From the NCBI GenBank assembly GCA_945883435.1, contig CAMCXK010000008.1, forward strand, positions 1-63,257: DNA of 63,257 bases, given 5' to 3'. The first letter of the stretch is position 1, and the number at the start of each line of letters is the position of its first letter. This stretch comes from Chthoniobacter flavus. Lineage in GTDB: Bacteria; Verrucomicrobiota; Verrucomicrobiia; Chthoniobacterales; Terrimicrobiaceae. The notes below the pieces were generated by a model. It worked only from the letters and a program-made list of their open reading frames with translations, was not told where the DNA came from and did not search any database. Position numbers and translations under genes: made by a program. This document shows, piece after piece, positions 6,807 to 57,127 of the stretch.

Positions 6807-6944
6807 GTAGCGGAATTTTGAAAAAATTTCGTTGTCCGCCGCCTTGAGTTCCACCCCATGCGCCCCGCCGCGCAAGGGCCTTCATCTGCGGTCGAAAATC
6901 GTTCCGATTTCCGCTACAGGTAGCGGAATTTTGAAAAAAATTCG
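6807..6944. repeat. REP cluster 2: paired unit A(+)/B(-) plus extra A(+)
   Basis: A 111-bp unit at 6807-6917 (A hairpin 6807-6831, 61-nt spacer, B hairpin 6893-6917 on minus) is followed after 2 nt by another A hairpin (6920-6944). All three have intact GTAG heads. The cluster fills the divergent gap between the esterase (minus) and the first giant surface protein (plus), so it could influence both transcripts. Confidence 0.88.
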
Positions 6945-6999: not shown

Positions 7000-7141
7000 C
7001 CAGGATTCCTGAGTAGGTTTTACCAGATATTCCCCACGCGCCATGCTCCCCGTCGCTCACACATCCCCGTTTTATCGGCATCTCCAAGCCATTGCCGATC
7101 CATTCGCCCGTTTCCTCCACCTCCAACCCTCCTCGCCTGCC

Positions 7142-10100
7142 ATGAACAACACGATCCATCGTTTCCAAATCACCGCAGTCCTCCCAGCGGGGCTTATTTT
7201 GATTTTGCTCGCTTGCCCTCTACTGTCGTTGCGTGCGGATACGCTCACTTGGTCTGGCGGGAACAGCACCGATTGGTCCGATAGCGCGAATTGGGGCGGC
7301 ACCGTTCCCAAGGCGAACGATTGGGCTTATTTCAACTCTTCTCCCTCGAACCAACCGACTCTCACGGGTAATATTTCCATCGAGGGCGTCCGCTTCGGCA
7401 CCTCGGCCGGCAATATCACTCTCTCCGGCGGCACGCTCAGTCTCGGCATCGGCGGCCTTTATGATGGCGGCACGGTGACCCGGCCGACGGTGACCAATGC
7501 CAGTGCGACGCTCACTGCGGTCAACACGACTGTAGCCGCCCAACTCTCGTCCATGCTTGCCAACGGCCAAACCGGATTGACGGTCACCGGGTCGGGGATT
7601 CCTGCAGGGGCCGTCGTCACAGGAGCCACGGTCAACTCCGGTTTTAGCGATTCCACTCTCACACTCAACGCCTCCGCCACGGCCACGAGCAATAACAATA
7701 TCTACACACTTCCGAATGGCAGTAGTTCGACCCTCACGATTTTATCCAACATCGCCCTCACCGCGAACCAATCTTGGCAGCTCAACTCGGGAGGTGTCAC
7801 CAGCGTGAATGGATCGTTGTCCGGTTCCTCTGATCTGGTTATCGCAGCATCCAACCAAACGAACAACACAACCCTCCCGAATCTCCGCCTCTACGGCACC
7901 AACTCGGGAATGACCGGCACCATCTGGATCGGCCAGAGCACCGGCACGGGAAGCCTCGGCCTACTTCTGGGCTCAGCCAGCGCCATGACGAATGGGCTCA
8001 TCTACATGAGTGACAGCGATAAAAACCTCTGGCTCACCGGCGGTGCTGAAAATGTCTACACCTTCGGGATCAACGGCACGGAAACCACCGGGGCTCGGGT
8101 GGCATTTCGCGTGGGCGGCTCCAGTTCGGGCGGGCTTTATGCAACCGGCGGGGATGTTTACTGGAACCCGGGGGGCGGCACAGACTACAACTGGTCTGGA
8201 ACGGCCGCTCAGGCCGTGGGAATGCAATTCGGCGGCAGCAACGATTCCACCCCCCGCATGTTTTATCTTGGAAACTCCCAAGGCAATCTGACCATCACGG
8301 GCGCCAACAAGAGCTTTATCCAAAGCTCCGGCGGCAATAATCCCGGTCGTGTCACGCTGCTTTCGGCTTTGGGAGGGAACGGATCCACTGCGCGGACTTT
8401 GAGTAGCAATCTGCCGCTTCTGGTCCTCACCCGTCCCTCCGTGGTTGGCACAGGAGCGGGTGGCTCGGGAAGTTTGACCTTGAATATTACTAGCGGTGCG
8501 ACATCCATCAGCGACATGAATCAATTGCCCGGCGGAAATTTGATTATCAGCGGGGGCGTTCTCGTTCTCGACGGTATCAGTGGAAGCACCTTCGCAAGTA
8601 GCCGTGGTTTTGGAACTGGTGCAGGGCAATGGCAATTCACAGGCGGTGGCTTTGCATCGCGGAATGGTTCATTAACTATCCCCAATGGAACGACAGGATT
8701 TACGACCTCAACTTATGATGGAAACCGAACATTTGGCACTGCCGTTTTGGCCAACGACGGATCTTTCTACGCCAATGGAAATCTCAATGTTGGAGTCGAC
8801 ACGACACTTTCCGCGGCCCGCACTTGGATTATCGCTGCAACCGGGCAGGGGTTGAGCTCCAACTCCACGCGCCCCGTTTACACCTTCTCGGGAAACCTCT
8901 CCGGTGCGGGTAGTCTGTTGGTTCAGGGAGGTGCCAATAGCGCGAATGCCCCGGAGCTTGTTTTGAGTGGACGCAATGCGTGGACCTCGGGAGCCACTTT
9001 CCAGCTAAACTCCAGCGGTCCGGTTTACATGAATGTCGGTAGTGGTGGTCTTATTGCAAGCAAGGCCATAGTGCGTTTTGATGGCGATGAATCGCTTCCC
9101 ACCGGGAATGGTGGCAATTTGGCCTACATATCCGGACAAAATCGCAACGATAGCACGCCAACGGGTATCTTGCTCACAGGTAATGCCACGGGCAAAGTTT
9201 ACGACCCTTCCGCAGGCTACAAGTTTCTCTTGGGCACCACCGATCCCTCGGGGACTTCCGATATGGTCTTCGGAGCCGATCAAGGAAAATCGCAGATTCA
9301 AAGCGCCCAACTTTTGCTCAATACGCAGGTCTCTGGCACCATGACCACAGCATTGCTCGCCCGCTCGGGAGCTGAGTTGACGCTTGGAGCTGCTGGAGCT
9401 GCGTTTCAAATTGTTCCAACTTTTGGAAATTCCACAACCGCAAACTCGACCACGGCAACTGTGGTTTCAGATCTCGTGACTGGCAACCGCACGCTCATCA
9501 AACGAGGCGAGGGAACCATGGTTCTCGGAAATGTCGGCTATACCTCCCAAGACGGTCTTACAGATAAGTCGTCATTAATTAGTTGGCGCATTGGGCGGGG
9601 AACGGCAAACGCCGTCTCGTCGCCCTATTCCGATGGTGCCATTCGAGAAACTGGATCGGCCTCCACTAACAGCTTGACAGGATTTAACATCAACTTGGCG
9701 GGTGGTGTCTTGGAATCCAACGGATCGTTTATAAGAGCCCTCGGCACGGGATCGACTCAAGTCCAGTGGAGTGCGAACGGCGGCGGCGGGTTTTCTGCCT
9801 ATGGTGGCAACCTCACGGTGAATCTGGGAAGCAGTCTCGCGCAAGTGAGTTGGAATACCTCGCCCTTCGTCAGAGAAAACAACCCGCTCATGTTTGGCTC
9901 GGAAACAGCCAATGCCACGGTCGATTTCCAAAATCCTATCGCTTTGGGCAGCGCCCAGCGGGAAATCCGGGTGTATGACAATGCGACTAGCGACACTGAT
10001 TTGGCGCTTCTCAGCGGGAACCTCTCGGGAACAGGGGCCGTCCTCAAAACCGGCAATGGCACGCTGCAATTGGGAAGCACAAACGCCTACTCTGGAAATA

Positions 10101-11296
10101 CAACCATCTCGGCCGGCACGCTGAAGATCACCTCGATCGCCAACGGAGGAGCCGTGAGCTCGCTGGGCAATTCCACCAACGCGGCTGCCAATTTAAACTT
10201 CTCCGGAGGCACCTTGGAATACGCGGGAGCATCCAACGGCGCCACGGACCGCAACTTCACGATTACCGCCGGCACAGGCGCTGCCATCGCTGTCACAGGG
10301 GCTGGAGAATTGACGATCTCCGGCGCATCCGCTTCCACGAATGGGTCGCTCACCAAGTCGGGATCCGGTGTTCTCAACCTTGGAGGCACCAACCTCCACA
10401 GCGGCGGCACCTCGATCACGCAGGGCACCTTGGCCCTCTCCGGCGGTAACGCCCTGGGCGACGCCTCGACCGTTACGCTTTCCAACGCATCCGGCGTGGT
10501 TCTGGCTTTGAACTCCAGCGAAACCATTGGCTCCCTGCGCGGGGGCGGCTCCACGGGTGGAACCACCCAAATTGCCGCCGGGCAAACGCTTACCGTGGCG
10601 GAATCCGGCAATGCCACCTACGCAGGGCAGATCACCGGATCCGGCGGCTTCACCAAATCAGGTGCGGGCACCTTGACTTTCTCCAGCACAAGCACCGGTT
10701 CCCATGGTGGAAGCACCTCGGTCGCCGCAGGCACCTTGGTTGTGGATGGCAATTTCTCGGCCGCCACGGGTCCGGTATCCATCACCTCGGGAGCCACGCT
10801 CTCCGGCTCGGGTTCCCTCGGCGGAGCCACCACATTGAATTCCGGGACCATCCTCGCACCCGGCAACAGCCCCGGGATTTTGACCTTCGGCAGTTCGTTG
10901 GCCTTGAACGCCGGGAGCGATATCCGGATGGAAATCAACGGATCCTCACGCGGGACCACCTACGACGCGATCGATGTCACCGGGGCCCTGACCTACGGAG
11001 GCAATCTGCAGCTGACCTTCGGGCAAACCTTCGGCACGGGGAACCACCCTTTCAACCTCTGGTCGTTTGGAAGCCAGTCCGGATCGTTCGATTCCATTAC
11101 ATTGGCCGGAGCCTACACAGGTTCCCTCACCAACGACAGCGGCACTTGGACCCTCACGGAAGGCTTGAATTCCTTCGAGTTCTCGCAAGCCACCGGCTCG
11201 CTCGTCCTCACGGTCGCTGTTCCCGAGCCCGGCACCTGGGCGCTCCTCGGTGTAGCCGCTGGCACGTTCCTCCTCTGGCGGCGCCGCACCTCGTAG
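7142..11296 (+). CDS. Giant autotransporter-repeat surface protein with PEP-CTERM anchor (copy 1)
   Basis: A 1384-aa product from the ATG at 7142, chosen because it precedes a typical signal peptide (residues 1-32, cleavage near SLRA). An in-frame ATG 99 nt upstream (7043) is also possible. The body is rich in Gly, Ser, Thr and Asn, and from about residue 950 it has beta-strand repeats of the autotransporter-associated type (patterns such as KTGNGTLQLG and TTISAGTL). The C-terminus is a canonical PEP-CTERM signal: VPEPGTWALLG, a hydrophobic stretch, then RRR. Such proteins are exported and processed by an exosortase, which is not in this window. The stop TAG is part of the GTAG head of a REP hairpin. 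It is paralogous to 12640-19857. No Shine-Dalgarno is visible. Confidence 0.85.
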   Translation: MNNTIHRFQITAVLPAGLILILLACPLLSLRADTLTWSGGNSTDWSDSANWGGTVPKANDWAYFNSSPSNQPTLTGNISIEGVRFGTSAGNITLSGGTLSLGIGGLYDGGTVTRPTVTNASATLTAVNTTVAAQLSSMLANGQTGLTVTGSGIPAGAVVTGATVNSGFSDSTLTLNASATATSNNNIYTLPNGSSSTLTILSNIALTANQSWQLNSGGVTSVNGSLSGSSDLVIAASNQTNNTTLPNLRLYGTNSGMTGTIWIGQSTGTGSLGLLLGSASAMTNGLIYMSDSDKNLWLTGGAENVYTFGINGTETTGARVAFRVGGSSSGGLYATGGDVYWNPGGGTDYNWSGTAAQAVGMQFGGSNDSTPRMFYLGNSQGNLTITGANKSFIQSSGGNNPGRVTLLSALGGNGSTARTLSSNLPLLVLTRPSVVGTGAGGSGSLTLNITSGATSISDMNQLPGGNLIISGGVLVLDGISGSTFASSRGFGTGAGQWQFTGGGFASRNGSLTIPNGTTGFTTSTYDGNRTFGTAVLANDGSFYANGNLNVGVDTTLSAARTWIIAATGQGLSSNSTRPVYTFSGNLSGAGSLLVQGGANSANAPELVLSGRNAWTSGATFQLNSSGPVYMNVGSGGLIASKAIVRFDGDESLPTGNGGNLAYISGQNRNDSTPTGILLTGNATGKVYDPSAGYKFLLGTTDPSGTSDMVFGADQGKSQIQSAQLLLNTQVSGTMTTALLARSGAELTLGAAGAAFQIVPTFGNSTTANSTTATVVSDLVTGNRTLIKRGEGTMVLGNVGYTSQDGLTDKSSLISWRIGRGTANAVSSPYSDGAIRETGSASTNSLTGFNINLAGGVLESNGSFIRALGTGSTQVQWSANGGGGFSAYGGNLTVNLGSSLAQVSWNTSPFVRENNPLMFGSETANATVDFQNPIALGSAQREIRVYDNATSDTDLALLSGNLSGTGAVLKTGNGTLQLGSTNAYSGNTTISAGTLKITSIANGGAVSSLGNSTNAAANLNFSGGTLEYAGASNGATDRNFTITAGTGAAIAVTGAGELTISGASASTNGSLTKSGSGVLNLGGTNLHSGGTSITQGTLALSGGNALGDASTVTLSNASGVVLALNSSETIGSLRGGGSTGGTTQIAAGQTLTVAESGNATYAGQITGSGGFTKSGAGTLTFSSTSTGSHGGSTSVAAGTLVVDGNFSAATGPVSITSGATLSGSGSLGGATTLNSGTILAPGNSPGILTFGSSLALNAGSDIRMEINGSSRGTTYDAIDVTGALTYGGNLQLTFGQTFGTGNHPFNLWSFGSQSGSFDSITLAGAYTGSLTNDSGTWTLTEGLNSFEFSQATGSLVLTVAVPEPGTWALLGVAAGTFLLWRRRTS

Positions 11297-11456
11297 CGGA
11301 ATTTCGAAGAAATTTCGGCCTGCCGCTGAGCCGCATCTCACTGCGCGTCGTCGAAAACCAGACCCTTCTCTGTAGCGGAAATTTGAAAAATTTTCGTCCT
11401 CGTCCGCGCCGAGTATCACGCCGCCTCCCCTCGAAAATCGTTCCGATTTCCGCTAC
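11293..11456. repeat. REP cluster 3: two short A(+)/B(-) units, downstream of copy 1 and flanking the RAYT gene
   Basis: An A hairpin (11293-11317) overlaps the stop codon of the preceding gene and is followed after 33 nt by a decayed B copy (about 11351-11371). The next unit is 85 bp. Its A-type hairpin at 11372-11396 uses arms CGGAAATTT and AAATTTTCG, a further compensated stem. A 35-nt spacer and an intact B hairpin on minus (11432-11456) complete it. The B copy runs into three tandem copies of the heptamer CGCTACG (11451-11471), which contain the stop codon of the RAYT gene. Confidence 0.87.
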
Positions 11457-11466
11457 GCGCTACGCG

Positions 11467-12006
11467 CTACGCGTCGACCGAAACCGCCTCGAACGCCATC
11501 CAGAAGCTTTCCCAGAAACCCTCGCGATGCGGATCGAGCGAGGGATACCCCGGCACGATGCTGCCGCAAAAGGCGTAAGCCGTCTCCTCCTCGACCAATC
11601 CCGCGCGCAAGGGATTTTGCAGGATGTATCCGGCCAGATTCTCGAAGGCCCCGCGCTGGCATTCCGCCTCGCGCAGCACGTGATCATGCGCTTGGCGCTG
11701 CAGAGCGATGCCCTCCGGCAGAAACCGTGTGAACGACTTCCGCAGCATGCGAATTCCCAAGCGCTGATCCGCCGCCGGCCGGCAGCCCATCACCAGAAAA
11801 TGGGCATGATCTGGCATGAGGCAGTAAACGGGGAAGACCAAGTGATACCGCACCCCGACATGAACCAGAATTTCCCTCAAGCGAAGGTGAAAGCACTCGT
11901 CAAGCCATCCGGTCGCGCGGTCCTCCATGGCCATCGTCCAGTGGCCCGCGGCCCGGCCCCGATAAAATCCCGGGTCCAATCGCGGCAATCGCGCGCGGTC
12001 GTTCAT
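11467..12006 (-). CDS. REP-associated tyrosine transposase (RAYT, Y1 family)
   Basis: A 179-aa product from the ATG at 12006. The core is the Y1 transposase signature: YCLMPDHAHFLVMG with the HUH histidines (His67, His69), followed by GYILQNPLRAGLV, whose tyrosine (Tyr127) is the expected nucleophile. The N-terminal HWTMAMEDRATGWLDECFH fits a RAYT subgroup. Length is within the usual range. RAYTs are single-copy, domesticated relatives of IS200/IS605 TnpA that recognise REP hairpins beginning with GTAG. Here REP units lie immediately on both sides (11293-11456 and 12073-12335). The stop codon falls in the CGCTACG heptamer repeat. An ATG further upstream (12117) would read through a REP hairpin and was not used. 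The enzyme could be active; both His and Tyr are present. Confidence 0.88.
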   Translation of the reverse strand: MNDRARLPRLDPGFYRGRAAGHWTMAMEDRATGWLDECFHLRLREILVHVGVRYHLVFPVYCLMPDHAHFLVMGCRPAADQRLGIRMLRKSFTRFLPEGIALQRQAHDHVLREAECQRGAFENLAGYILQNPLRAGLVEEETAYAFCGSIVPGYPSLDPHREGFWESFWMAFEAVSVDA

Positions 12007-12072
12007 GCCCGGCAGCCATCGCGAACGCCCTCCATTCCTGCAAGCAAAAAAGCAAACCCACCACATTCCCTC

Positions 12073-12335
12073 GTAGCGGAATTTCGAAAAAATTTCGTCT
12101 GCCCCGCCGAGCATCACGCTGCCGCATCTCGAAAATCGTTCCGATTTCCGCTACGCGAAGAAGCACACCACCGCCGAAAATCCACCCCATTCCCTTGTAG
12201 CGGAATTTCAAAGAAATTTCGTTGTCCGTGCGATGCCTTATCCCGGCGCCAGTTGCCACCTGGCAGCGTGCGTGATCTGCCCTCGAAAATCGTTCCGATT
12301 TCCGCTACAGGTAGCGGAATTTTGAAAAAATTTCG
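12073..12335. repeat. REP cluster 4: short unit, long unit and extra A, upstream of the RAYT gene
   Basis: There is a short unit of 82 bp at 12073-12154 (A 12073-12097, 32-nt spacer, B on minus 12130-12154) and a long unit of 112 bp at 12197-12308 (A 12197-12221, 62-nt spacer, B 12284-12308). A further A copy follows 2 nt later (12311-12335). The A copy at 12197 has AAA instead of GAA as loop. The two spacer sizes seen elsewhere both occur here next to the transposase gene. Confidence 0.88.
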
Positions 12336-18600: not shown

Positions 18601-19857
18601 ACTTACTCAGGGACAGCAAATGCCACAACCGATACTTTTCAATTGCTTGGAAATGCAGTTGTGGAAGCTGGTTCAAGCGTCAATTTTACAAATGCCGCCA
18701 TTGGAAATAATGGGCGGTTTGCAATGGGTGGTAGTGTGCGAACGATCGATGTGGGTGCGGGAGCAAACATGACAATAAATTGGCTCGCAGTAGGTATTAA
18801 CGGAGGAATTGCCAAAAACGGCTCCGGCGCACTGACGCTCAATGCTGCCAACTCTTTCTCTGGAAAAACGATCGTTCAGAGTGGCACGCTCGCGTTCACC
18901 ATCGGCAACGCTTCCGCCACGGGGGCGCAAGCACTGGGAACCAATACGGCACTCGACCTTGGCGTGGCAGGCGTTTCCTCCGGCCTGCTCGATTACACGG
19001 GCACGGGCGCGGCGACCTTGGCAAAAAACATCAACGCCCTCGGCAATGGCAACGATACGATTCGCAATAGTGGCACCGGTCTCCTGACCCTCTCGGGCAC
19101 CCTGACGAAAAATGGAACCACCCTCACGCTCAATGGCGGAGCGAATGGCATCGATGTCACTGGCTCGATCGCGGGATCCAATGCCAACTCCGATCTGGTG
19201 GTGGACGGCGGCAATGTGACCCTCTCCTCGGCCAATACCTACAACGGCCCCACGATCATCAACTCCGGCACGCTCACGGTTGCTCATGCAAATGCCTTGG
19301 GAACCAATGCCACGGTGAATGTCAACGGCGGCTCCCTTCTCGTAACGGCGGATAGCGCCGTCGACTCGAAGAACCTCACGCTTAACAGCACGAGCACGAC
19401 GGTGGCCGGGTTGGCCTTCTCCGGCACTTACAATGGCACGGCCGGGGTCCTCACCCTCAGCCGCGACTCGATCATCGACCTCGGCACCGGCAGTGTGGTC
19501 TTGCACTTCGCCAGCATCGCCGGCTTGGGCACCTACAACCTGGACATCTACAACTGGACCGGCACCACGCTCTGGGAGGGCGGCACGGGCAACAACGTGG
19601 ACCAGATTTACGCGGATGGCAGTTCCTTGGGCCAATCCGAGTTGGCGCGGATCAGCTTTTACAGTGGGGGTCTGGGATCCAATAGTTTTGTCGGAAACGG
19701 CTATCAATTCATGAGTGGTGGATTCGCAAACGAAATCATCGCCGTGCCGGAAGCCGAAACCTGGATCGCCGCCGCCCTCCTTACCGCCGCCGCTGCCATC
19801 ACCGCCCTCCGCCGTCGAAAATCGTTCCGATTTCCGCTACACATCGACGCTCCGTAG
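12640..19857 (+). CDS. Giant autotransporter-repeat surface protein with PEP-CTERM-like anchor (copy 2)
   Basis: A 2405-aa product from the ATG at 12640, which gives a good signal peptide (residues 1-36, cleavage near VYA). Residues 1-1000 parallel the first giant protein (7142-11296). About 1000 further residues add many autotransporter-associated beta-strand repeats (KSGSGTLTL, TTISAGTL and variants). The C-terminus has VPEAETW, a hydrophobic stretch and RRR, an imperfect PEP-CTERM. The frame then continues 12 residues through a REP hairpin (KSFRFPLHIDAP) and stops at a TAG in the next GTAG head. Base composition is uneven: about 13000-14900 is clearly more A+T rich than the rest. The protein is exported and probably surface-attached; its ligand is unknown. 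Confidence 0.85.
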   Translation: MKKSTLRFHSTPTLLASFLGFVLGFLLCPTPTVYAQNLTWTGTSNSTWNTTTNWSPNGTPANGGNFTFNSTITNQPSNNNITSLSIGSLTFGTANTNGVTIGGSAFTLAGNLTNLNTTASRNVTISNDITISGNQTWTASNSNAITILSGNLLGAGNVTITAFASNGVTAPVFRLLGGNNSGWTGGINFSSDSGLLLSSAQAMTDGLINLNNGGNANIWLTGGAEAGTYTFGIANTQNSGARVQFRGSGSGGIFLTGGDVYWNPGGAQDYSWSATGSSSNATIIDFSGSNNTTPRMLYLGNASGNFSISGGNKTFRNATGGNNPARVTLLSALGGNGTTSQTLTTSLGLLVLTKNAVSGTGSGGAGKLALTVSGGATAINDLNQLPGGNLNLSGGVLILDNISWDSLISNRTIGSADGQFRITGGGFAARGSNLLIPNNATGGLSASTFNSNFAIGSSAVYSTGNYYGNANVTIALDTTLSAARSITVGSNGLGMASGSQILNRITGNLSGSGSIYTLGASNSNTAGELVLGGANSWTGAPTFLINASLYMNVGNGGLIANNSLVRFESPASLPTGNGGSLAYLSAQQRNSSTAFGFILTGNATGQTYILPTGYKLMIGTQTSSSPATTGLIGSDFGKAILSSSDIVINGNTDASITMNFLTRAGSELTLGTGANSIKLMPTYGFSSTASTTPTTLSDNVSGTRTIIKRGEGTLVLGNLGYTKQDGITSQASLFSWQIGRGTASNAGASAYNDGAVRGLSWDDPSASNSNSLKNFFLSMRGGVYEIDNTSGNGGTFTGNLGLSGSGNLSIGNVSGTSSLGGGGFSAFGGNVVVTLKPIGGVSGGDLTWASTNSGFVQTNDPLMFGSETATAMIQLSNGIALNGAQREIRVYDNINSATDLAFLSGNLTGTGTSGINKTGNGTLQLGATNSYAGATTITAGTLQITSIANGGAVSSLGNSTNAAGNLTFSGGTLEYATSSNGSTDRNFTITSGGSGAIAVTGAGELTISGTSAATNGTFTKSGSGTLILNGNNLHTGTTTLAGGVLEAGNSGALGDGGDITFGGGTLRYTASSSGTDYGSRIKNSTGAISLDTNSQSVTLGALASTNAGGLTKSGSGMLTLSGSNSYTGGTTISAGTLNVTGSIIGTTTVNSGGALLGTGTTGAVTISSGALIGAGSSANSVGTLTVGDLTLSGGGRYTWDISNTAGTPGTDWDLISASSTTITATSGNQFTIYLTGNPSNWSPSTSYSSGWNILSWGSSVTGFDASAFILNAGDFTGTAPTGTWSFSNSAGYLKLVYTAPSSAADWTGGSGNWSSGANWQGGSAPSPGSPTPLVFTGSGGVSTNDNQLSTVSGITFGGTGSYTVNGSAINLSGGITNNSSYAQTVALGVTLSAAQTFAANSGNLIVSGDLNTNGNPLLMDGANTVVISGDMSGAGSLTKNGSGSLTLSGSNSYSGTTTLNAGTLTLQGSLDGTSLDLDGGAFSQVASGSIAGSGSTLTVSGATVTLAGNNSYTGATTLTAGTLNLDGSLTGSDITVSGGTWSQSATGSISGDGNSFTLDGGAATLAGTNSYTGATTVNAGTLTLQGGLAISNSGAVVMANTAGAELLVDAAETIGDLSGGGSLGGGIVIASAQGLTVSQSSATTYSGVLSGGGAFVKDGSGTLTINGTNAFTGGTTISAGNLTLVGGAALADSGSVSIADAAGAVLHISANETIGSLSGGGSTGGNVSIASAQVLTVNQATDGTFAGRLVGSGALTKVGSGTLTLSGANTLSGNISISAGNLTLTGGSALPDTGNVTFSNTAGAVLHIANSETIGSISGGGSTGGNINIQSGQSLTLNQSISYSFNGSISGDGSLVKSGSGTLTLRGNNTFTGTTTVSAGSLALNNSSANNQTLVGNIVVNGGNLTLGAANQMANTLNLSLSSGKVDLSNHAATINSITMTGGTLNRAGQALTLNTNSSFTGGGVALTNTASRITASGNTTFGNTTFTYSGTANATTDTFQLLGNAVVEAGSSVNFTNAAIGNNGRFAMGGSVRTIDVGAGANMTINWLAVGINGGIAKNGSGALTLNAANSFSGKTIVQSGTLAFTIGNASATGAQALGTNTALDLGVAGVSSGLLDYTGTGAATLAKNINALGNGNDTIRNSGTGLLTLSGTLTKNGTTLTLNGGANGIDVTGSIAGSNANSDLVVDGGNVTLSSANTYNGPTIINSGTLTVAHANALGTNATVNVNGGSLLVTADSAVDSKNLTLNSTSTTVAGLAFSGTYNGTAGVLTLSRDSIIDLGTGSVVLHFASIAGLGTYNLDIYNWTGTTLWEGGTGNNVDQIYADGSSLGQSELARISFYSGGLGSNSFVGNGYQFMSGGFANEIIAVPEAETWIAAALLTAAAAITALRRRKSFRFPLHIDAP

Positions 19858-19962
19858 CGGAATTTCGAAGAAATTTCGTCTTCCCTCGAGCGGAATCGCG
19901 CTGAACGCATCGAAAATCGTTCCGATTTCCGCCACGGGTAGCGGAATTTTGAAAAAATTTCG
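19816..19962. repeat. REP cluster 5: B(-), short unit A(+)/B(-), A(+), overlapping the gene end
   Basis: A B hairpin at 19816-19840 lies inside the coding end of the second giant gene. The short unit spans 19854-19935 (82 bp; A 19854-19878, 32-nt spacer, B 19911-19935 with GCCAC instead of GCTAC). A last A copy (19938-19962) follows after 2 nt. The order B, A...B, A repeats that of cluster 1. Confidence 0.87.
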
Positions 19963-38679: not shown

Positions 38680-38791
38680 GTAGCGGAATTTCGAAGAAAT
38701 TTCGTTCGGCATGTGCCCTCTTTTCGCGGTGCCACATGCCAACTTGCAGCTTACGGCCTCAGCCGTCGAAAATCGTTCCGATTTCCGCTAC
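38680..38791. repeat. REP cluster 6: single long unit A(+)/B(-)
   Basis: A 112-bp unit (A 38680-38704, 62-nt spacer, B on minus 38767-38791), intact at both ends. It starts 24 nt after the GH42 stop, between two convergent operons. Its spacer shares a TGCCA...TTGCAG core with other long units. Confidence 0.9.
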
Positions 38792-38886
38792 GTCCAATAA
38801 CAGCGCGCCGCCCGTTCTGATTGCAGCGGAGAGCTTATTGGCAACCCGATCTCGCTCTCCTATCCTTAACCCGAATCCAGCGGAAT

Positions 38887-38917
38887 TAACCACAGAGGAC
38901 ACGGAGAGCACAGAGGA
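38887..38917. repeat. CACAGAGGACACGGAG-type intergenic repeat
   Basis: The string contains ACCACAGAGGACACGGAG followed by a second CACAGAGG. This type of intergenic sequence recurs in many bacterial genomes; here it lies in the 367-bp gap 38656-39022, with REP cluster 6 and the repeat at 38987 but no gene. Confidence 0.5.
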
Positions 38918-38986
38918 TGAATGAATTGCACGAAATCGCATCGGATTTTATTGTCCGACTCATTACTGCCATAAACCCTTCCCGTT

Positions 38987-39009
38987 AATCCTGTCCTCCT
39001 GTCTAAAAA
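38987..39009. repeat. Short dispersed repeat (copy of 5659-5682)
   Basis: AATCCTGT followed by CCTCCTGTCTAAAAA on plus, matching the reverse strand of 5659-5682 with one difference. It sits just past the 3' end of the minus-strand sugar operon. Confidence 0.6.
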
Positions 39010-39022
39010 TCCGCTTTCAGGC

Positions 39023-41158
39023 TTAAACACTCCACAACTCACCCGCTCGCAGGGGTTGATCGATCAGGCGGCCATCCGGAAGACGCGCCCGAAGTGTGCC
39101 ATCGCGGGTCGCTCGCGCCGTGAAGGTGAATGGCGTGTCGGGACTCATCCGGGCCGATAGCAGGAAGCCTCCCGGGGCGAGGAGTCCTTCGAAGGTGATG
39201 TGGTTCCACCCGGTCGGGAGGCGTGGAAGAATCCACAACCGGTCCCCGCGCTCCTGCACCAGCAGGTCAAAAACCGCCGTGAGCGCTCCGAAGCGTCCGT
39301 CCAGTTGCATGAGTTCCGACTCGCCCTCGGCGCCGGGCGGAGTGGCTTTGTTCGTGATCCCCGGAAACGCCGCATCGTGAATCGAGGCGCGGCCTTCGTT
39401 TGTGAAAACGCCCTTCCAGATTCTCAACCACTGCACGGCGGCATCCGGATTGTTGCAATAGGTGTGGATGGACGCCGCCCACGGAACGCACCATCCGCTC
39501 CAGAGGCCGGGTCCCCGGTAATGCCAAAACTCCAGCGATTGCCGGATCAATGCGCCATGCGAATCCGGGTCGATCGTTTTGAAGGGATAGATGGCCCCGA
39601 GGTGCGAGTGGTGGCGGTGGCTGGCGTCGAGGTCCTGTCCCTCCCAGAGAAAAATCCGCTCCCGTTGCTTCTCGGGATATTCGCCGTTGGTCGATCCGAC
39701 GCCGGTTTGAACTAGGGGAAGACCCTTCCGCATCGATTCCCAGCGGGGATCGGGGGCCTGTCCCAGCACGGAAGCCGCCTTCGGGAGAGCCCGCAAAAGA
39801 GCGTGGCAGGCGGCGAGCTGAAACGATGCATTCCGGCCCCACGCGTCGTCGCGCGCACCTTTGTATTCGGGGCTCACGGAAACCGGAAAAAACCAGGATC
39901 CATCGGACCGCTGGTCGGCCATGGCGTGGTAGCCCTCGAAGGCCCCGAGCAGAAGCGGCCAGGCGAGTTCGCGAAGAAGTTTTTCATCCCCGCCGTGCCG
40001 GTAGGCGTCCCAGCAAAGGAGAGCCATCCACGCGGTGCAGGCCTGGTCGATAAAACCTGTCCAGAAGGCGCCCACAGCCTGGCAGTGGTCGTCCACGGCG
40101 TGGGGCAGGAGCATGGCTCCCGGAGCCTCAAAAAACCGCTCGCCGGCTTGCGCGAGGCGGGGGAGCCAGGATTGAAGAAGCGCCCATAGCGGGGCGCCGT
40201 GCGAAACCCGGTTGCTCCACAACGCGGGGGCGTAGATCATCTCGATGTTGATGTTGAAGTGGTAGTCCGCGCTCCAGGGAGGCAGGCGCACTTCTTCCAG
40301 AAACGGTCCTTGAAGCGTGCAGGCAAGCCCTTGGGGTGGCGTGCAACAGGCCTGCATGTAGAGCCCGAAATCGACCATCTCCTGCAGGTCAGGTGCCGGG
40401 ATTTCGACCTTCGGCACCGACTTCCAGTAATCCGCCCACCAACGAGCCGCCGATTTACGGCAATCGGCGGGGTTTCGACCTGCCGTAGCGCGGGCCCGTT
40501 GACGCGCCTCGACGCCCACATGCGTTCCGATCAGCCAATCGTTGCCGTGGCGAAGGACTACAATGGCGAGGGGATCGTCCGAGGGAAGCCGCTGCTCGAA
40601 TCCGCACTCCTCCGCACTGCTCCATTCGATCGGCGGGGCGATGCCGATGGACGAAAGTTCCGAACCCACCCATTCCCAGCTGGGACGGAGGCGGAGGGAT
40701 TTTACATGGTCCGGCAACGAGAGGATCGCCTGCTCGGTATCGGGCGATTGAATCAATGATCCCTCGGCGAGCGTGCGGCCGTTCCGGAAGGCGATTCGAA
40801 TGCGGCCCTCGGTCATCTCCAATGTGGCGGATTCCACCATCCATCCCTCGGCGAGCGTGATTTCAAGGCGTCCGCCCCCGATTTGGCGGGGAATGGGGGA
40901 CTGCTCCTTCGAATCATTTCGGAAGATGGCGCGCACGGCCGAATAGTCGTGGCTTTCCAGTAGGCGGCGCAGCTCGGAGTAGGTTGTTTTTTCGGAAAAG
41001 GGATTTCCTCCCCGGTGGTCCCAAAAGCCCGCCCGCCCGATGGTGATGTTCAGAGTCGAATGCCCTCCCCAGACGAGGAGTCCTTGGGTGCCGTTGCCAA
41101 GCGGGGCTCCGGTTTGGGGACGGTGAAGGGGAAATCTCCAGACGAGGTTTTGATTCAT
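39023..41158 (-). CDS. GH95-like glycoside hydrolase (alpha-L-fucosidase / alpha-L-galactosidase type)
   Basis: A 711-aa protein with features of GH95: an N-terminal beta domain starting with WRFPLHRPQTGAPLGNGTQG, then LPPWSADYHFNINIEMIYAP and HRHHSHLGAIYPF, the equivalents of the family's PWSSDYHxNINxQMNYWP and HRHxSHLxxxxP motifs. It is slightly shorter than usual and has no signal peptide, so it should act in the cytoplasm. GH95 enzymes release alpha-L-fucose or alpha-L-galactose by inversion. It is the last gene of the seven-gene operon and overlaps GlcF by 4 bp, which suggests it supplies the sugar for the operon's catabolic steps. Confidence 0.82.
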   Translation of the reverse strand: MNQNLVWRFPLHRPQTGAPLGNGTQGLLVWGGHSTLNITIGRAGFWDHRGGNPFSEKTTYSELRRLLESHDYSAVRAIFRNDSKEQSPIPRQIGGGRLEITLAEGWMVESATLEMTEGRIRIAFRNGRTLAEGSLIQSPDTEQAILSLPDHVKSLRLRPSWEWVGSELSSIGIAPPIEWSSAEECGFEQRLPSDDPLAIVVLRHGNDWLIGTHVGVEARQRARATAGRNPADCRKSAARWWADYWKSVPKVEIPAPDLQEMVDFGLYMQACCTPPQGLACTLQGPFLEEVRLPPWSADYHFNINIEMIYAPALWSNRVSHGAPLWALLQSWLPRLAQAGERFFEAPGAMLLPHAVDDHCQAVGAFWTGFIDQACTAWMALLCWDAYRHGGDEKLLRELAWPLLLGAFEGYHAMADQRSDGSWFFPVSVSPEYKGARDDAWGRNASFQLAACHALLRALPKAASVLGQAPDPRWESMRKGLPLVQTGVGSTNGEYPEKQRERIFLWEGQDLDASHRHHSHLGAIYPFKTIDPDSHGALIRQSLEFWHYRGPGLWSGWCVPWAASIHTYCNNPDAAVQWLRIWKGVFTNEGRASIHDAAFPGITNKATPPGAEGESELMQLDGRFGALTAVFDLLVQERGDRLWILPRLPTGWNHITFEGLLAPGGFLLSARMSPDTPFTFTARATRDGTLRARLPDGRLIDQPLRAGELWSV

Positions 41159-47632: not shown

Positions 47633-49717
47633 TCAATCCGTGTGAAAACTCCACTCCGCCTCGTCGGCCGGAATCGGCAAGATCGCCGCAAATCCGCATT
47701 CCTTGCCCTCCGCAGGGGGCGTGGGCGAGAGATACTCCGGCAAGCTTTCAGCGGTAGTAACGGGCGGCGGCGGTCCCTCCAGCGAGTGGGTGCCCACACA
47801 TAAGACCGCCCCCCCGGCGAGAGTGGCAAGATGGTCCACATCGCCTTTGCCCGCGCTCAAGTAGGTGCTGTAATGCGGTGCGGTGAGGTCCGGTTTCAGC
47901 ACCGCCAGCATGGGGTGACCGCCGAATTCATGCACCACCGGCAAGAAGGCGTTCACGGTCGTCGGGAAGGAAATGGTGGTTCCTCCGGCGACTACGACTT
48001 TCCCGTCGCCCGCGACCTCCATATCGGCCACGCTCGCGCTGTTGATGTCCGGCCAGCGCTTGTTGGGCGAGTTGGGCATGCGCGAGTGGATATAGGTCGA
48101 GTTTTTTAAGCGCCCGGTGGCGGCATCGACTCTCCCGATCCACGGGATTTTGATATTGCCGTTGGTGCCAGTGAATTTGGTCAACCAGCCGTCCGGGGCG
48201 AGCAGGAGGGTTTTCACATTGTTGCCGTGCTGCCAATAACACACGAGCACATCGCCATTCGTGGGATCAATGTCGAGCGCTTGGGTTTTTTGATCGGGCT
48301 CGCTCAGAAGGCCGTTGAGGAAAGTATTTGTCCAAAGCAACTTTCCATCGGGCGAGAATTTCAGTAGGAACGGATCGAAATCCGGGAAGCCCATATGGAA
48401 TGGAATCGTGCCCGACACATAGAGATTGCCCTCGCGGTCGATGGCGAGCGCCTCGGGCTTGAGGTCCGCGCCGCGAATCGGATTTTTTCCCGATTTCACA
48501 TTTGTCCATTCGATCGACTGCCCTGCATTGCGTTCGCTCCCCCAAGGACCGAGCGGGGTGGCGGTATCGGGGAGGGTCTCCGCCTTGCGTGCCCAGATGG
48601 CGAAGGGGCCGTCGGCCAGAGTCGGGGAGGAAAAATCCAGCTTCATTCGCCGCGTCGGGCCATCCGGGGCGGCAGGGAAGGTGCGCTCGAAGTGCCCCTC
48701 GGAGAAAAAACGCGCGAGGTAGCCGCCTCCGCTGCGCCCGGAGGGGAATCGCAAGGTCGCCGGTCGATTGGCCGCATCCACCGCAAAGTCTCCCACCTCG
48801 ACGCTCAGGGGAATCACGCGTTCGATGGATTGCAGATTCGGCGCCATCCGCACGAGGCAGCGGGCGGCTTTGGGAGCATCCTTCCCTCCCAAGTTTGCCC
48901 CCACTTGCTCGGTGAGCACCCACAGAGCACCGCCGGGGGCTTCGCGAACGAGTTTGATGCGGCCTAGTTCCTCGGGCGCAAAGACCACGCCGTCCTTCAC
49001 CTCGCGGCCATTCGCGGAAAGGCGCAAGAGGAAGGGCAGGGGAGTGCCTTCCGTGGAAGTGCTCGGAGCTGCGCCTTGCCATCCACGCACCCGTGGCCAA
49101 CCGACTGGCGGTGGACATTCTCCCGCCAGGACGATGTCCCCGCCCTCGATCCGTGCCAGAGAGTGGATTTTCACGCCGGCAGGCAGCCACCCCCACACGG
49201 GGCTGGAATTTTCGCGGCTTGTGAAGGCCGGGCGCGCGGGAGTTGCGGAGGTTGGCATGCCGGATTCCTTGGTTTCCAAGGCCACTTCCTCCTCCGGGCT
49301 GGCTTCCGAGTTCAGAGGAGCCGCTTCCTTCGCCTCATCGGCTTTGCGCTGGGCCCCAGCCATCGTCCACGCTTCATGATCCTGGGCCGTGGCGGGCTTC
49401 AAGTCGGCCAGCCGCACTTTTCCTCCCGGACGGTCTTCCAAGCTGCTTCCGACTTCGGCAAAGTCTCCGTGCAACATCCGGATCCGCACCACCTCGCCCG
49501 GATCGGATTTTCGAATTACCACATCGGTGGGCGACAGGATATCCGCCTCGCCGGTGAAGGAGGCGTATTGACCGCGTTTCCAGTCGGCTTGCGCCAGAAG
49601 GGCCGGCGCAAAAACCACCGCCAGCAGGATCGCGAGAAGACAGCGCTTCCCGTAGCGGAACAGGGAACCTGTTTCGTTCGCTTCAGTTTGATGAAAACAA
49701 CCCGTTCGGTAGCGCAT
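47633..49717 (-). CDS. Secreted beta-propeller-like protein in the pilin operon
   Basis: A 694-aa protein with a membrane/signal segment at about 27-42 (LLAILLAVVFAPALLAQ). The preceding N-terminal region contains a C-type REP hairpin in frame (NETGSLFRYGKR). The body from about 165 has repeats of the NHL/SBBP style: EALAIDREGNLYVSGTIPF, LLKFSPDGKLLWT and VADMEVAGDGKVVVAGG. It starts 5 nt after the stop of the cassette D gene, so it belongs to the same operon. It may be a cell-surface component linked to the pseudopili. Function is not known; no catalytic motif is visible. Confidence 0.72.
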   Translation of the reverse strand: MRYRTGCFHQTEANETGSLFRYGKRCLLAILLAVVFAPALLAQADWKRGQYASFTGEADILSPTDVVIRKSDPGEVVRIRMLHGDFAEVGSSLEDRPGGKVRLADLKPATAQDHEAWTMAGAQRKADEAKEAAPLNSEASPEEEVALETKESGMPTSATPARPAFTSRENSSPVWGWLPAGVKIHSLARIEGGDIVLAGECPPPVGWPRVRGWQGAAPSTSTEGTPLPFLLRLSANGREVKDGVVFAPEELGRIKLVREAPGGALWVLTEQVGANLGGKDAPKAARCLVRMAPNLQSIERVIPLSVEVGDFAVDAANRPATLRFPSGRSGGGYLARFFSEGHFERTFPAAPDGPTRRMKLDFSSPTLADGPFAIWARKAETLPDTATPLGPWGSERNAGQSIEWTNVKSGKNPIRGADLKPEALAIDREGNLYVSGTIPFHMGFPDFDPFLLKFSPDGKLLWTNTFLNGLLSEPDQKTQALDIDPTNGDVLVCYWQHGNNVKTLLLAPDGWLTKFTGTNGNIKIPWIGRVDAATGRLKNSTYIHSRMPNSPNKRWPDINSASVADMEVAGDGKVVVAGGTTISFPTTVNAFLPVVHEFGGHPMLAVLKPDLTAPHYSTYLSAGKGDVDHLATLAGGAVLCVGTHSLEGPPPPVTTAESLPEYLSPTPPAEGKECGFAAILPIPADEAEWSFHTD
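49652..49676 (+). repeat. C-type REP hairpin inside a coding leader
   Basis: GTAG head, arm CGGAACAGG, loop GAA, arm CCTGTTTCG. It lies in the signal-peptide region of the gene at 47633-49717, on the opposite strand. It is not paired with another hairpin. Confidence 0.82.
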
Positions 49718-49722
49718 AGAGA

Positions 49723-50484
49723 TCAGGGACGATAGACACGGGGGATCGTATTGATCGGGTCGATGGCGACCGTGGCGAAATTCGGCGGCAATCCGCTCAC
49801 GCTCCCACCAGATGCCGGGCCGGACTCCGGCACAAAAGTGACGGCATTTTGGTCTTGGGATGTCACCACGGAGCCGGAGGGCGTGAGAAGCACATCGGCG
49901 TAGGTTTTGCTATTGGTGGTTCCCGTGTGCCGTGTGAGCAAGCCGGAGAACGTCGCGCTGTTCGTGGCCACGATGCCGGTGGGAAGATTCTTGATTTTGT
50001 CCACCGCCTGCCAGCTGTTCCTGTCGGCCAGATCTTTCTGCTCCCAGAGTTGGTAAGAGCGAAAGTTGGCTCCATCCTGCCAAAAACGGATGGCCACTTG
50101 ACGGTTGAAGGTGCTGGCGCGTTGGCGCGCGAGGTTGACGGTGCCGGCGAATTCCTCCGAAGCCGCGGTGAGGTTTGTGCCGCCGGAAATGCCCCGCATG
50201 GCCGGGACCAACAGAACCGCCATCATTGCGATGATGCCGATGACCACCAGAAGTTCGAGGAGGGAAAACGCCGCCTTGGCGTCTGCGGAAAGGCGCCGAA
50301 ATTTCTTCGAAATTCCGCTACTCGGAAAGCCCGTAGCGGAAATCGGAACGATTTTCGAGGAAAGTCGATCCTGTGGTCCGAAGTAACGTGGAAGCCAATG
50401 CGCGGCCTGCCGTCGAAATTTCTTCGAAATTCCGCTACGCGGGATGCAACTCGCCGACGAAATCCGAACGATTTTCGTAGTCAT
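49723..50484 (-). CDS. Verru_Chthon cassette protein D, prepilin-type, with REP-derived leader
   Basis: A 253-aa product from the ATG at 50484, 7 nt after the stop of the cassette A gene. The mature part begins FSLLELLVVIG, a type IV prepilin N-terminal helix, with the predicted cut between Ala72 and Phe73. The leader is thus about 72 residues, far longer than the usual 5-30, and is largely encoded by three intact REP hairpins and a decayed one (50297-50478; SGISKKFRR twice, SSKIVPISATG). The C-terminal body resembles cassette D pseudopilins. Whether peptidase accepts the long leader is unknown; no alternative ATG lies closer to the helix. Confidence 0.8.
   Translation of the reverse strand: MTTKIVRISSASCIPRSGISKKFRRQAAHWLPRYFGPQDRLSSKIVPISATGFPSSGISKKFRRLSADAKAAFSLLELLVVIGIIAMMAVLLVPAMRGISGGTNLTAASEEFAGTVNLARQRASTFNRQVAIRFWQDGANFRSYQLWEQKDLADRNSWQAVDKIKNLPTGIVATNSATFSGLLTRHTGTTNSKTYADVLLTPSGSVVTSQDQNAVTFVPESGPASGGSVSGLPPNFATVAIDPINTIPRVYRP
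50297..50478. repeat. REP cluster 7 inside the cassette D leader
   Basis: Inverted relative to the others: A on minus at 50297-50321, B on plus at 50333-50357, A on minus at 50414-50438, and a decayed B at about 50457-50478. The unit 50333-50438 is 106 bp with a 56-nt spacer. All lie in the coding sequence of the preceding gene entry and keep its frame open. Confidence 0.87.
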
Positions 50485-55277: not shown

Positions 55278-56426
55278 TCAATTTTCCTTTTGAGCTGAAA
55301 ATTTCGCTCCCCGGAGCGGGATGACCTGGTTGAAGATACGGAAATCCACTTTGGCATCGATCAGTTGAGCTTCAAGGGCGGCAAGGTCTTCGTCCAATTT
55401 TGCGGGATTTTGAAACCAATTGGCGTTCAGTTTGAAGGCGGTCGGCGGATTCGAGTCGGTCGTCAGGCGGGCGGCATTTTTTTCATCCACCGCAACCATC
55501 ACCACCCGCAACAGGGGCGGGAGTTGAGCGAATTGCAGGGCTGAAACTCCGGATCGACCAGCCCGGGAGTCGTAGATGTAACCTGTTGAAGTGAGGGAGT
55601 ATTCATTTGGCAATCCCAGAAGTGTGGCGTCTTGTTTCGCTACTTCGGGACGGATGATCAGGGCGATAATATTCTCGCAGAGGATATTCCTGACCGAGGA
55701 GCTGCCGGCCAAGCCTTCGGTGATCCACCGGTCGTCGTTGGTATTGTTGGTATCCGTAAATGCCGGGTAGCCTCCGCAGGAGGTGTTAAAATTTTGTGTG
55801 GGCAAAACATTTTCCACCAATCGATACCGATGCCGATTCGGGAGCGAAGACAGGAAGGACGGACGCAGTTCGGAATCGGAGCCGAATTCCACATAGTATC
55901 CGCACGCATTCAGAAGGTTCGGCAAGTCGGAGAGCGTGGCATTGCCATTGGAAAAGCCCAGAGGGGCAAAGAAGAATACGCCCTTTCCTTGTTGATCGCC
56001 GCCGAGAAGGGCAGCGGCATCATCGACAACGAAATGCAAGTCACTCGCGCGGCCATAACGTGCTGGAATGAAGCTTGCTGAACTCGAAGGATTGCGGCGC
56101 ACCCAATTCGCGTCATAGTAATCAAGATACGTATTCAGCGTGGCTTGGGAGAGGCGTCGGGTAAGAGTATCGTAAGCTGTGCGGGCGGCATCGAAAGAAA
56201 ACACGGAAGACTGGGTATTCCTCCAGAGGCGAAAGGAACTGTCTGTGACGGCGGTGAGAAGCACCACAAACAATGCCAGGACGGCCGTCGAGACAAGGAC
56301 CTCCAAGAGACTGAACCCGCCAAGAGCCTTCCCCGTCGCGGAACAGGGAACCTGTTTCGCAATCGCGGTCGTCGGGTTCCCACCGGCGTGGGATGCCGAT
56401 GGTTTTCTGGCGTCGAAATGCAACAT
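55278..56426 (-). CDS. Verru_Chthon cassette protein C, prepilin-type
   Basis: A 382-aa protein starting in a TAATG overlap with the cassette B stop. A 37-residue leader, part of it encoded by a C-type REP hairpin (AIAKQVPCSATGK), precedes FSLLEVLVSTAVLALF, a prepilin helix with expected cleavage at Gly37/Phe38. The remainder is a pseudopilin-like domain (SSFRLWRNTQSSVFSFDAAR; YYVEFGSDSELRP). It should be processed by a prepilin peptidase not encoded here. Confidence 0.82.
   Translation of the reverse strand: MLHFDARKPSASHAGGNPTTAIAKQVPCSATGKALGGFSLLEVLVSTAVLALFVVLLTAVTDSSFRLWRNTQSSVFSFDAARTAYDTLTRRLSQATLNTYLDYYDANWVRRNPSSSASFIPARYGRASDLHFVVDDAAALLGGDQQGKGVFFFAPLGFSNGNATLSDLPNLLNACGYYVEFGSDSELRPSFLSSLPNRHRYRLVENVLPTQNFNTSCGGYPAFTDTNNTNDDRWITEGLAGSSSVRNILCENIIALIIRPEVAKQDATLLGLPNEYSLTSTGYIYDSRAGRSGVSALQFAQLPPLLRVVMVAVDEKNAARLTTDSNPPTAFKLNANWFQNPAKLDEDLAALEAQLIDAKVDFRIFNQVIPLRGAKFSAQKEN
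56335..56359 (+). repeat. C-type REP hairpin in the cassette C leader
   Basis: Head GTCG instead of GTAG, then arm CGGAACAGG, loop GAA, arm CCTGTTTCG, identical in the arms to 49652-49676. Confidence 0.78.
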
Positions 56427-57016: not shown

Positions 57017-57127
57017 GTCCCGGAGATCGGAACGATTTTCAACGGCCGCCATCCCTCTCATACAGAAAAACCAGGCATTGGGAAAAACGACTGTTTCGCC
57101 AACGAAACTTCTTCGAAGTTCCGCCAC
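57017..57127. repeat. REP cluster 8: decayed long unit, inverted
   Basis: A B-type hairpin on plus (57017-57041; arms CGGAGATCG and CGATTTTCA around GAA) and an A-type hairpin on minus (57103-57127; arms CGGAACTTC and GAAGTTTCG around GAA, read on minus), separated by 61 nt, total 111 bp. It lies in the 410-bp divergent gap 56906-57315, which otherwise shows only a further eroded hairpin near 57230. Confidence 0.75.

Follow-up and report, generated by a model that had tools for sequence, protein, structure and literature searches.

TnpA-REP of Escherichia coli, a REP-associated tyrosine transposase (RAYT), acts on repetitive extragenic palindromes (REPs) of three types, y, z1 and z2, and tolerates a swapped upper stem. 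An irregularity of the stem is critical for this enzyme, and a base of the loop is critical for other RAYTs, those of Stenotrophomonas maltophilia (Sm) and Marinomonas (Mb) (PMC8266576). The GTAG repeat families described by Di Nocera in 2013 include GTAG-17, GTAG-19 and GTAG-20 of Opitutus terrae, and the prevalence of heterodimers in many REP families was noted there as having no obvious explanation (PMC3733652). In Pseudomonas fluorescens SBW25, REP doublets forming hairpins (REPINs) have one arm type and make a single long hairpin (PMC3116915). Here, we analyse a RAYT gene and the GTAG-headed hairpins around it in a stretch of 63,257 nucleotides from Chthoniobacter flavus (contig CAMCXK010000008.1, assembly GCA_945883435.1), hereafter the window or contig C8.

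This system is a REPtron of a RAYT clade centred on the Planctomycetes, Verrucomicrobia and Chlamydiae, and it follows an unusually strict rule: the two arms of its REPINs share the parts that presumably face the enzyme and never share the upper stem. We consider it very probable that the RAYT mobilises the miniature elements among which its gene lies, and that the mobile unit is a REPIN of unlike arms. The rule bears on the question in the REP literature of why unlike-arm pairs prevail, and it separates the clade from the symmetric REPINs of the Pseudomonas picture.

Much of the background has been published: RAYTs act on several REP types and tolerate upper-stem swaps, loop bases and stem irregularities matter to them, and both complementary stem variation and heterodimers occur; that one enzyme serves several stems is thus largely known from RAYT biochemistry. 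We found no published description of a clade in which like-arm pairs are lacking and the remainder of the arm is constant, and this appears to be new. The window system resembles those of E. coli TnpA-REP, Sm and Mb in its HUH motif and single tyrosine, its GTAG head and short hairpin, the position of the gene between REPs, and the several stem types per enzyme. It differs from them in that the RAYT belongs to a sub-clade of its own, scores 43 bits against an NCBIfam model with a cut-off of 80 and lacks a Pfam match, and in that a 9-bp stem with G.T at pair 3 is joined to a GNA triloop, i.e., an irregular stem together with a fixed loop. The Di Nocera families share with it the GTAG tag, complementary stem variation, head-to-head heterodimers, and a host among the Verrucomicrobiota, but like-arm dimers are absent here and not merely rarer, a comparison made with the published description of those families (PMC3733652). 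As in SBW25, an inverted REP pair with a short spacer is the likely mobile unit, single REPs are its likely remnants, and a RAYT lies nearby, whereas the arms here are always unlike in the upper stem (PMC3116915).

The RAYT gene and its hairpins

The gene encodes a protein of 179 amino acids that keeps the HUH motif and the tyrosine, as the earlier note on this DNA had claimed from the letters alone; H67-A-H69 and Y127 are invariant across 30 aligned RAYT sequences (the window protein and its relatives). NF047646 matches all 30 of these sequences at E<=0.001 and the window protein at E 3.8e-11; the 43 bits of the latter fall under the model's 80-bit cut-off, which is a naming threshold and describes no mechanistic feature. 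Searches of Pfam and PHROGs with the protein gave no match. Its structure was predicted with a pLDDT of 95, and the top match in a fold search of the PDB (TM 0.64/0.69) was 4er8, a complex of E. coli TnpA-REP with a REP hairpin, which was also retrieved by a sequence profile search (E 3e-10). The protein thus combines an HUH motif and a single catalytic tyrosine with a predicted Y1 transposase fold, and these matches bear out the original assignment to a REP/RAYT system. The open reading frame (ORF) is intact and embedded between hairpins on both sides, also as proposed, and the hairpins recur elsewhere in the genome. We rejected an IS200/IS605 insertion sequence, in which the transposase gene would travel between left and right ends of its own and be present in several copies, because a single copy of the gene was found in the draft genome.

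We searched for the hairpins with the frame GTAG-CGGAA-N11-TTTCG, leaving the inner pairing free and using the reversed pattern as a control. The window contains 20 exact copies of GTAGCGGAA-N11-TTTCG, clustered around the RAYT gene, and about eight further decayed copies, where at least fifteen 25-nt elements had been noted before. The genome-wide search proposed in the earlier note gave 40 matches in the 2.84-Mb draft genome, nearly all of which fold as hairpins, against 0 for the reversed pattern; a relaxed search (loop GAA, at most 3 mismatches) gave 68 matches against 14 in the control. The inner-stem classes listed in that note (TTTC, TTTT, ATTT, ATCG, CAGG, and CTTC) all occur in the window. 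Its more general statements held with some exceptions. The GTAG head is common to the exact copies, but the copy at 57103 is headed GTGG. The inner stems are compensated in nearly all copies, but the one at 12073 has an uncompensated C.A pair. The loop is typically GAA, with AAA in the copy at 12197. The third pair is G.T in all exact copies, as the search pattern imposes, and no intact hairpin with G-C at pair 3 was found in the genome search at up to 3 mismatches.

The features of the window are the following, with REPIN arms named by their inner-stem class:

1775 to 1886: REPIN of 112 bp, TTTC/ATCG, slightly decayed, accompanied by a decayed ATCG copy (1742-1766) and a TTTT hairpin (1904-1928)
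6807 to 6917: REPIN of 111 bp, TTTT/ATCG; a TTTT hairpin lies at 6920-6944
11293 to 11317, plus strand: REP hairpin of the TTTC class; the ORF 7043-11296 takes its TAG stop from the GTAG head
11372 to 11456: REPIN of 85 bp directly 3' of the RAYT gene, ATTT arm (plus strand, 11372-11396) facing ATCG arm (minus strand, 11432-11456), spacer 35
11467 to 12006, minus strand: RAYT gene, 179 amino acids, HUH motif H67-A-H69 and Tyr127, matched to NCBIfam NF047646 and, by sequence and fold, to PDB 4er8
12073 to 12154: REPIN of 82 bp 5' of the RAYT gene, TTTC arm (plus strand, one inner mismatch) facing ATCG arm (minus strand, 12130-12154), spacer 32
12197 to 12308: REPIN of 112 bp, TTTC arm (plus strand, loop AAA) facing ATCG arm (minus strand, 12284-12308), spacer 62
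12311 to 12335, plus strand: REP hairpin of the TTTT class
19816 to 19962: REP cluster, with ATCG (minus strand) at 19816-19840, a TTTC/ATCG REPIN at 19854-19935 (second head GTGG) and TTTT (plus strand) at 19938-19962
38680 to 38791: REPIN of 112 bp, TTTC/ATCG, both arms intact
49652 to 49676, plus strand: single hairpin of the CAGG class
50297 to 50438: TTTC (minus strand) at 50297-50321, then a REPIN of ATCG (plus strand, 50333-50357) and TTTC (minus strand, 50414-50438), inverted relative to the other REPINs
56335 to 56359, plus strand: decayed hairpin of the CAGG class, head GTCG
57017 to 57127: decayed pair, ATCG-like arm (plus strand, 57017-57041) facing CTTC arm (minus strand, 57103-57127, head GTGG)

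In the window, most T-rich hairpins share a strand and most ATCG hairpins occupy the opposite one, forming facing pairs of 82-112 bp with the GTAG heads outermost. The main stem classes are thus the two arms of inverted pairs, with TTTC, TTTT, and ATTT arms opposite ATCG arms, and for these classes we could rule out independent REP families belonging to several enzymes. The spacers measure 31-36, 56-62, or 118 nt and are similar between copies whose flanks are unrelated, as expected of REPINs dispersed as a unit.

Two hairpin groups lie at the extreme ends of large autotransporter-like ORFs (11293-11296 and 19816-19857). At the second, the ORF ends at 19857, and the hairpin 19816-19840 overlaps its 3' end, extending the reading frame by a short tail.

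Inner-stem covariation and unlike arms

The inner four pairs offer a fair test of covariation because the searches did not impose their pairing, whereas the five outer pairs are fixed by the pattern and are uninformative. We collected 102 copies from the window genome, a further five of its genus and one more of its family, seven genomes in all. They fall into 22 inner-stem classes, and the inner four pairs are fully Watson-Crick in 90 of them, against 7 when the arms are shuffled. A set of 50 distinct sequences, some of them from the two RAYT relatives with this frame described below, has a covariation score of 0.525; shuffling the arms reduces it to 0.098, and sliding the partner by one column to 0.04-0.08. 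Each of the four inner pairs occurs in at least three Watson-Crick types. The covariation that the earlier note had described in a handful of stems therefore holds across genomes, and the unpaired copies that would have spoken against it did not turn up in numbers.

The two arms of a unit are never alike. Among all adjacent facing pairs of the genus and family, 0 of 30 are like-armed, where random pairing inside each genome would give 5.4 (P 0.002), and the wider clade gives 0 of 26 at 13 RAYT loci, two window pairs being counted in both sets. These are not REPINs of the P. fluorescens kind, with one REP type and a single long hairpin, although their outer 9 nt can still pair. At the 13 loci the arms share the head, the lower stem and the loop, and differ with compensation in the upper stem. 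Between hairpins of the same RAYT, changes in pairs 1-4 are rare and always confined to one side, whereas those in the upper pairs are frequent and nearly always affect both. Of 115 clade hairpins, 99 have a loop with G as its first and A as its last base (GAA, GGA, GTGA, GTAA, GCCA, and others); in DNA, GNA loops and some GNNA loops are known for closing with a sheared G.A pair and for their unusual stability. Of 25 clade loci, 10 have only G.T at pair 3, 2 more have it among other types, 8 have only G-C, and the remainder vary; the wobble thus marks some members of the clade and not all.

This comparison supports the view that the enzyme would read the head, the wobble and the loop rather than the sequence of the upper stem. 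The suggestion of the earlier note that one enzyme serves several stems stands on the same comparative grounds; what it missed is that the main stem classes are arms of one unit and that the lower stem, CGGAA/TTTCG in the window, is among the parts kept.

A mechanism can be proposed from these patterns. In a REPIN, two GTAG hairpins on opposite strands face each other with the heads outermost, across a spacer of mostly 31-62 nt, and the arm on each strand would offer the GTAG, the lower stem CGGAA/TTTCG with G.T at pair 3, and the GAA loop. By analogy with its family, the RAYT would bind the single-stranded GTAG hairpin and nick close by. The upper four pairs would be required as a helix and not read as sequence, and could be rewritten as long as they are compensated. 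The arms would have to differ there because identical arms would pair with each other as one long inverted repeat in which both GTAG hairpins are hidden. In a nearest-neighbour DNA folding model whose values are capped at 1e-12, we gave each of 54 pairs identical arms by substituting a mirrored copy of one arm for the other; the modelled chance of the GTAG hairpin, about 1e-2 in the natural pairs, then fell to 1e-11 or less, about 1e9-fold or more, in all 54. In this model the natural REPINs are balanced between two states, the arm hairpins on the one hand and pairing of the two arms through their nine common outer bases on the other; unlike upper stems would keep such an exchange of partners from running through.

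The wobble does not fit a role in helping the arms to fold separately, which we had considered: the model shows the reverse, a Watson-Crick pair 3 lifting the hairpin chance from about 0.01 to 0.8. Since the G.T pair weakens the arm hairpin and is nevertheless conserved, it points to recognition, as do the stem mismatches of E. coli REPs. The wobble reads G.T on the GTAG strand but A.C on the opposite one, and the GTAG strand accordingly forms the better fold. We put forward, tentatively, that REPIN arms in this clade need to be alike in all that the enzyme reads (the head, the lower stem, a GN(N)A loop and, in some members of the clade, a wobble) and unlike in an upper stem that would serve as a freely rewritable block, preventing the arms from swapping partners so that each keeps its own GTAG hairpin. 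If true, this would explain the prevalence of heterodimers in many REP families. With more than 20 natural variants of the upper stem set in a constant frame, the system also offers useful material for finding out which features a single-strand transposase reads.

The rule could equally well arise independently of the enzyme, an explanation to which we give the same tentative credence. Long perfect inverted repeats may be deleted or cut (e.g., by SbcCD), so that only unlike-arm REPINs survive and the RAYT itself would accept either arm type. Loss of inverted repeats has been proposed for heterodimers (Di Nocera 2013, PMC3733652), and at five RAYT loci with a single stem class (L177, L181, L184, L187, and L197) the hairpins occur in one orientation only, as this explanation predicts, but the same-type inverted pairs of P. 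fluorescens, which form one long hairpin, indicate that such repeats are tolerated in some bacteria (PMC3116915). The two causes predict the same sequences here and explain them equally well. They compete over the cause of the rule and leave the REPtron reading untouched.

Hairpins across the RAYT lineage

Relatives of the window RAYT at about 40-53% identity come mostly from Verrucomicrobiota and also from Kiritimatiellota, Lentisphaerota, one planctomycete, and a few others. Among 35 such loci and the window taken together, 23 have at least two clear GTAG- or GGAG-headed hairpins nearby. The RAYTs of two of these loci, L174 and L176 (52-53% identical to the window protein), are flanked by GTAG-CGGAA-CGGC/GCGC/CGAC-GGA-...-TTTCG, i.e., by the frame of the window with other inner stems and another loop (GGA). 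Their genomes contain 25 and 17 frame copies, respectively, against 0-2 in the genomes of ten other clade relatives, and the three enzymes form one group in the tree (support 82/80). The frame thus appears to belong to the lineage of the window enzyme, and this link, suggested by the flanks and then checked by counts in whole genomes, is the best evidence for the association.

Could a different RAYT serve these hairpins, both here and in relatives, the window gene being a chance neighbour? Four genomes (G003, G010, G015, and G025) do contain 14-25 frame hairpins each, with many inner stems and without a RAYT of the window clade. We nevertheless find this improbable, since the sister RAYTs at L174 and L176 carry the window frame, several RAYTs of relatives have REPs of their own that differ from it, and the other three RAYT-like genes of the window genome (on C53, C78, and C89) are not its owners: no frame hairpins were found near those on C78 and C89, and the one on C53 has a single decayed CAGG copy 2.4 kb away. 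The earlier note had named a second RAYT gene surrounded by the same hairpins as the finding that would undo its proposal, and none appeared among these three.

It is still less probable that the hairpins are kept as RNA elements, such as transcript 3' ends or mRNA stabilisers, with the RAYT as a mere neighbour. Several hairpins do lie at ORF ends (11293, 19816), G.T pairs would be stable as G.U in RNA, and REPs elsewhere may often be transcribed. The facing pairs, however, place the GTAG strand on both DNA strands and so give preference to neither direction of transcription; the GTAG head is kept although it is not part of the hairpin itself; the frame accompanies a RAYT lineage; and a search of Rfam with the hairpins matched no family.

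Several points weigh against the reading of a REPtron whose RAYT moves these units. Many facing pairs are copies of a few ancestors, so the 56 pairs are not 56 independent cases. The support of 82/80 for the three-enzyme group is moderate, and the folding numbers come from a model with capped values. Neither sequence nor profile searches found a RAYT of the window clade in G003, G010, G015, or G025; as same-genus genomes carry many frame hairpins without such a RAYT, the gene cannot serve all hairpins of this kind, and those of the four genomes may be remains from lost enzymes or may have been moved by a distant RAYT. A search for an empty site at one locus (38680) in 15 relatives matched only the repeats, the flanks being too diverged, and gave no empty site. 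Finally, the TTTC/ATCG REPINs lie almost all on contigs C8, C10, and C66, about 131 kb of the 2.84 Mb (4.6% of the assembly), which is odd for a freely mobile element and raises the question of local spread or of contigs that are neighbours. Contamination was considered for these contigs, whose GC content and tetranucleotide profiles fit the other contigs, though this is not decisive.

Other RAYTs of the genus and family were seen along the way. The only close same-family relative of the window RAYT, in G019, is 44% identical over a match that covers part of the protein, and no frame hairpins were found in that genome. The RAYT-like gene on C78 of the window genome (L053:157-543) is interrupted by a TGA. 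RAYT sub-families at L131, L148, L097, L087, and L090 have their own REPs, in which two stems alternate on a common head and loop: a GGAG head with a CTCCGT loop, GTAG with a TGT loop, or GTAG with a CGCCGT loop. An identical 25-mer, GTAGCGGAATGGGGAACCCATTTCG, occurs in a Puniceicoccaceae genome (L227, L231, G127) and in a member of the window genome's family (L155, G025).

Other repeats and neighbouring features

The CAGG class may stand outside the REPIN system of the window, as most of its copies, on other contigs, sit inside a longer and different repeat. This is the case of the hairpins at L037, L038, L040, L043, L045, L046, and L050 (contigs C10, C15, C16, C54, C61, and C97), where the longer repeat ends in the ribosome-site-like AGGAGAAAATGAAC and ATG, followed by unrelated sequence. 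In G025 (L156-L163) and G015 (L170), several single frame hairpins tip a longer imperfect inverted repeat with the layout CCCGAAAAC..GCGTTT, hairpin, AAACGC.GTTTTCGGG, unlike that of a REPIN.

Within the window, positions 38866-39027 hold a dispersed repeat containing TTAACCACAGAGGACACGGAGAGCACAGAGG, unrelated to the REPINs, which has many matches in each of 15 of the 16 searched genomes of the genus. The end of the contig (62837-63257) falls within a 16S rRNA gene.

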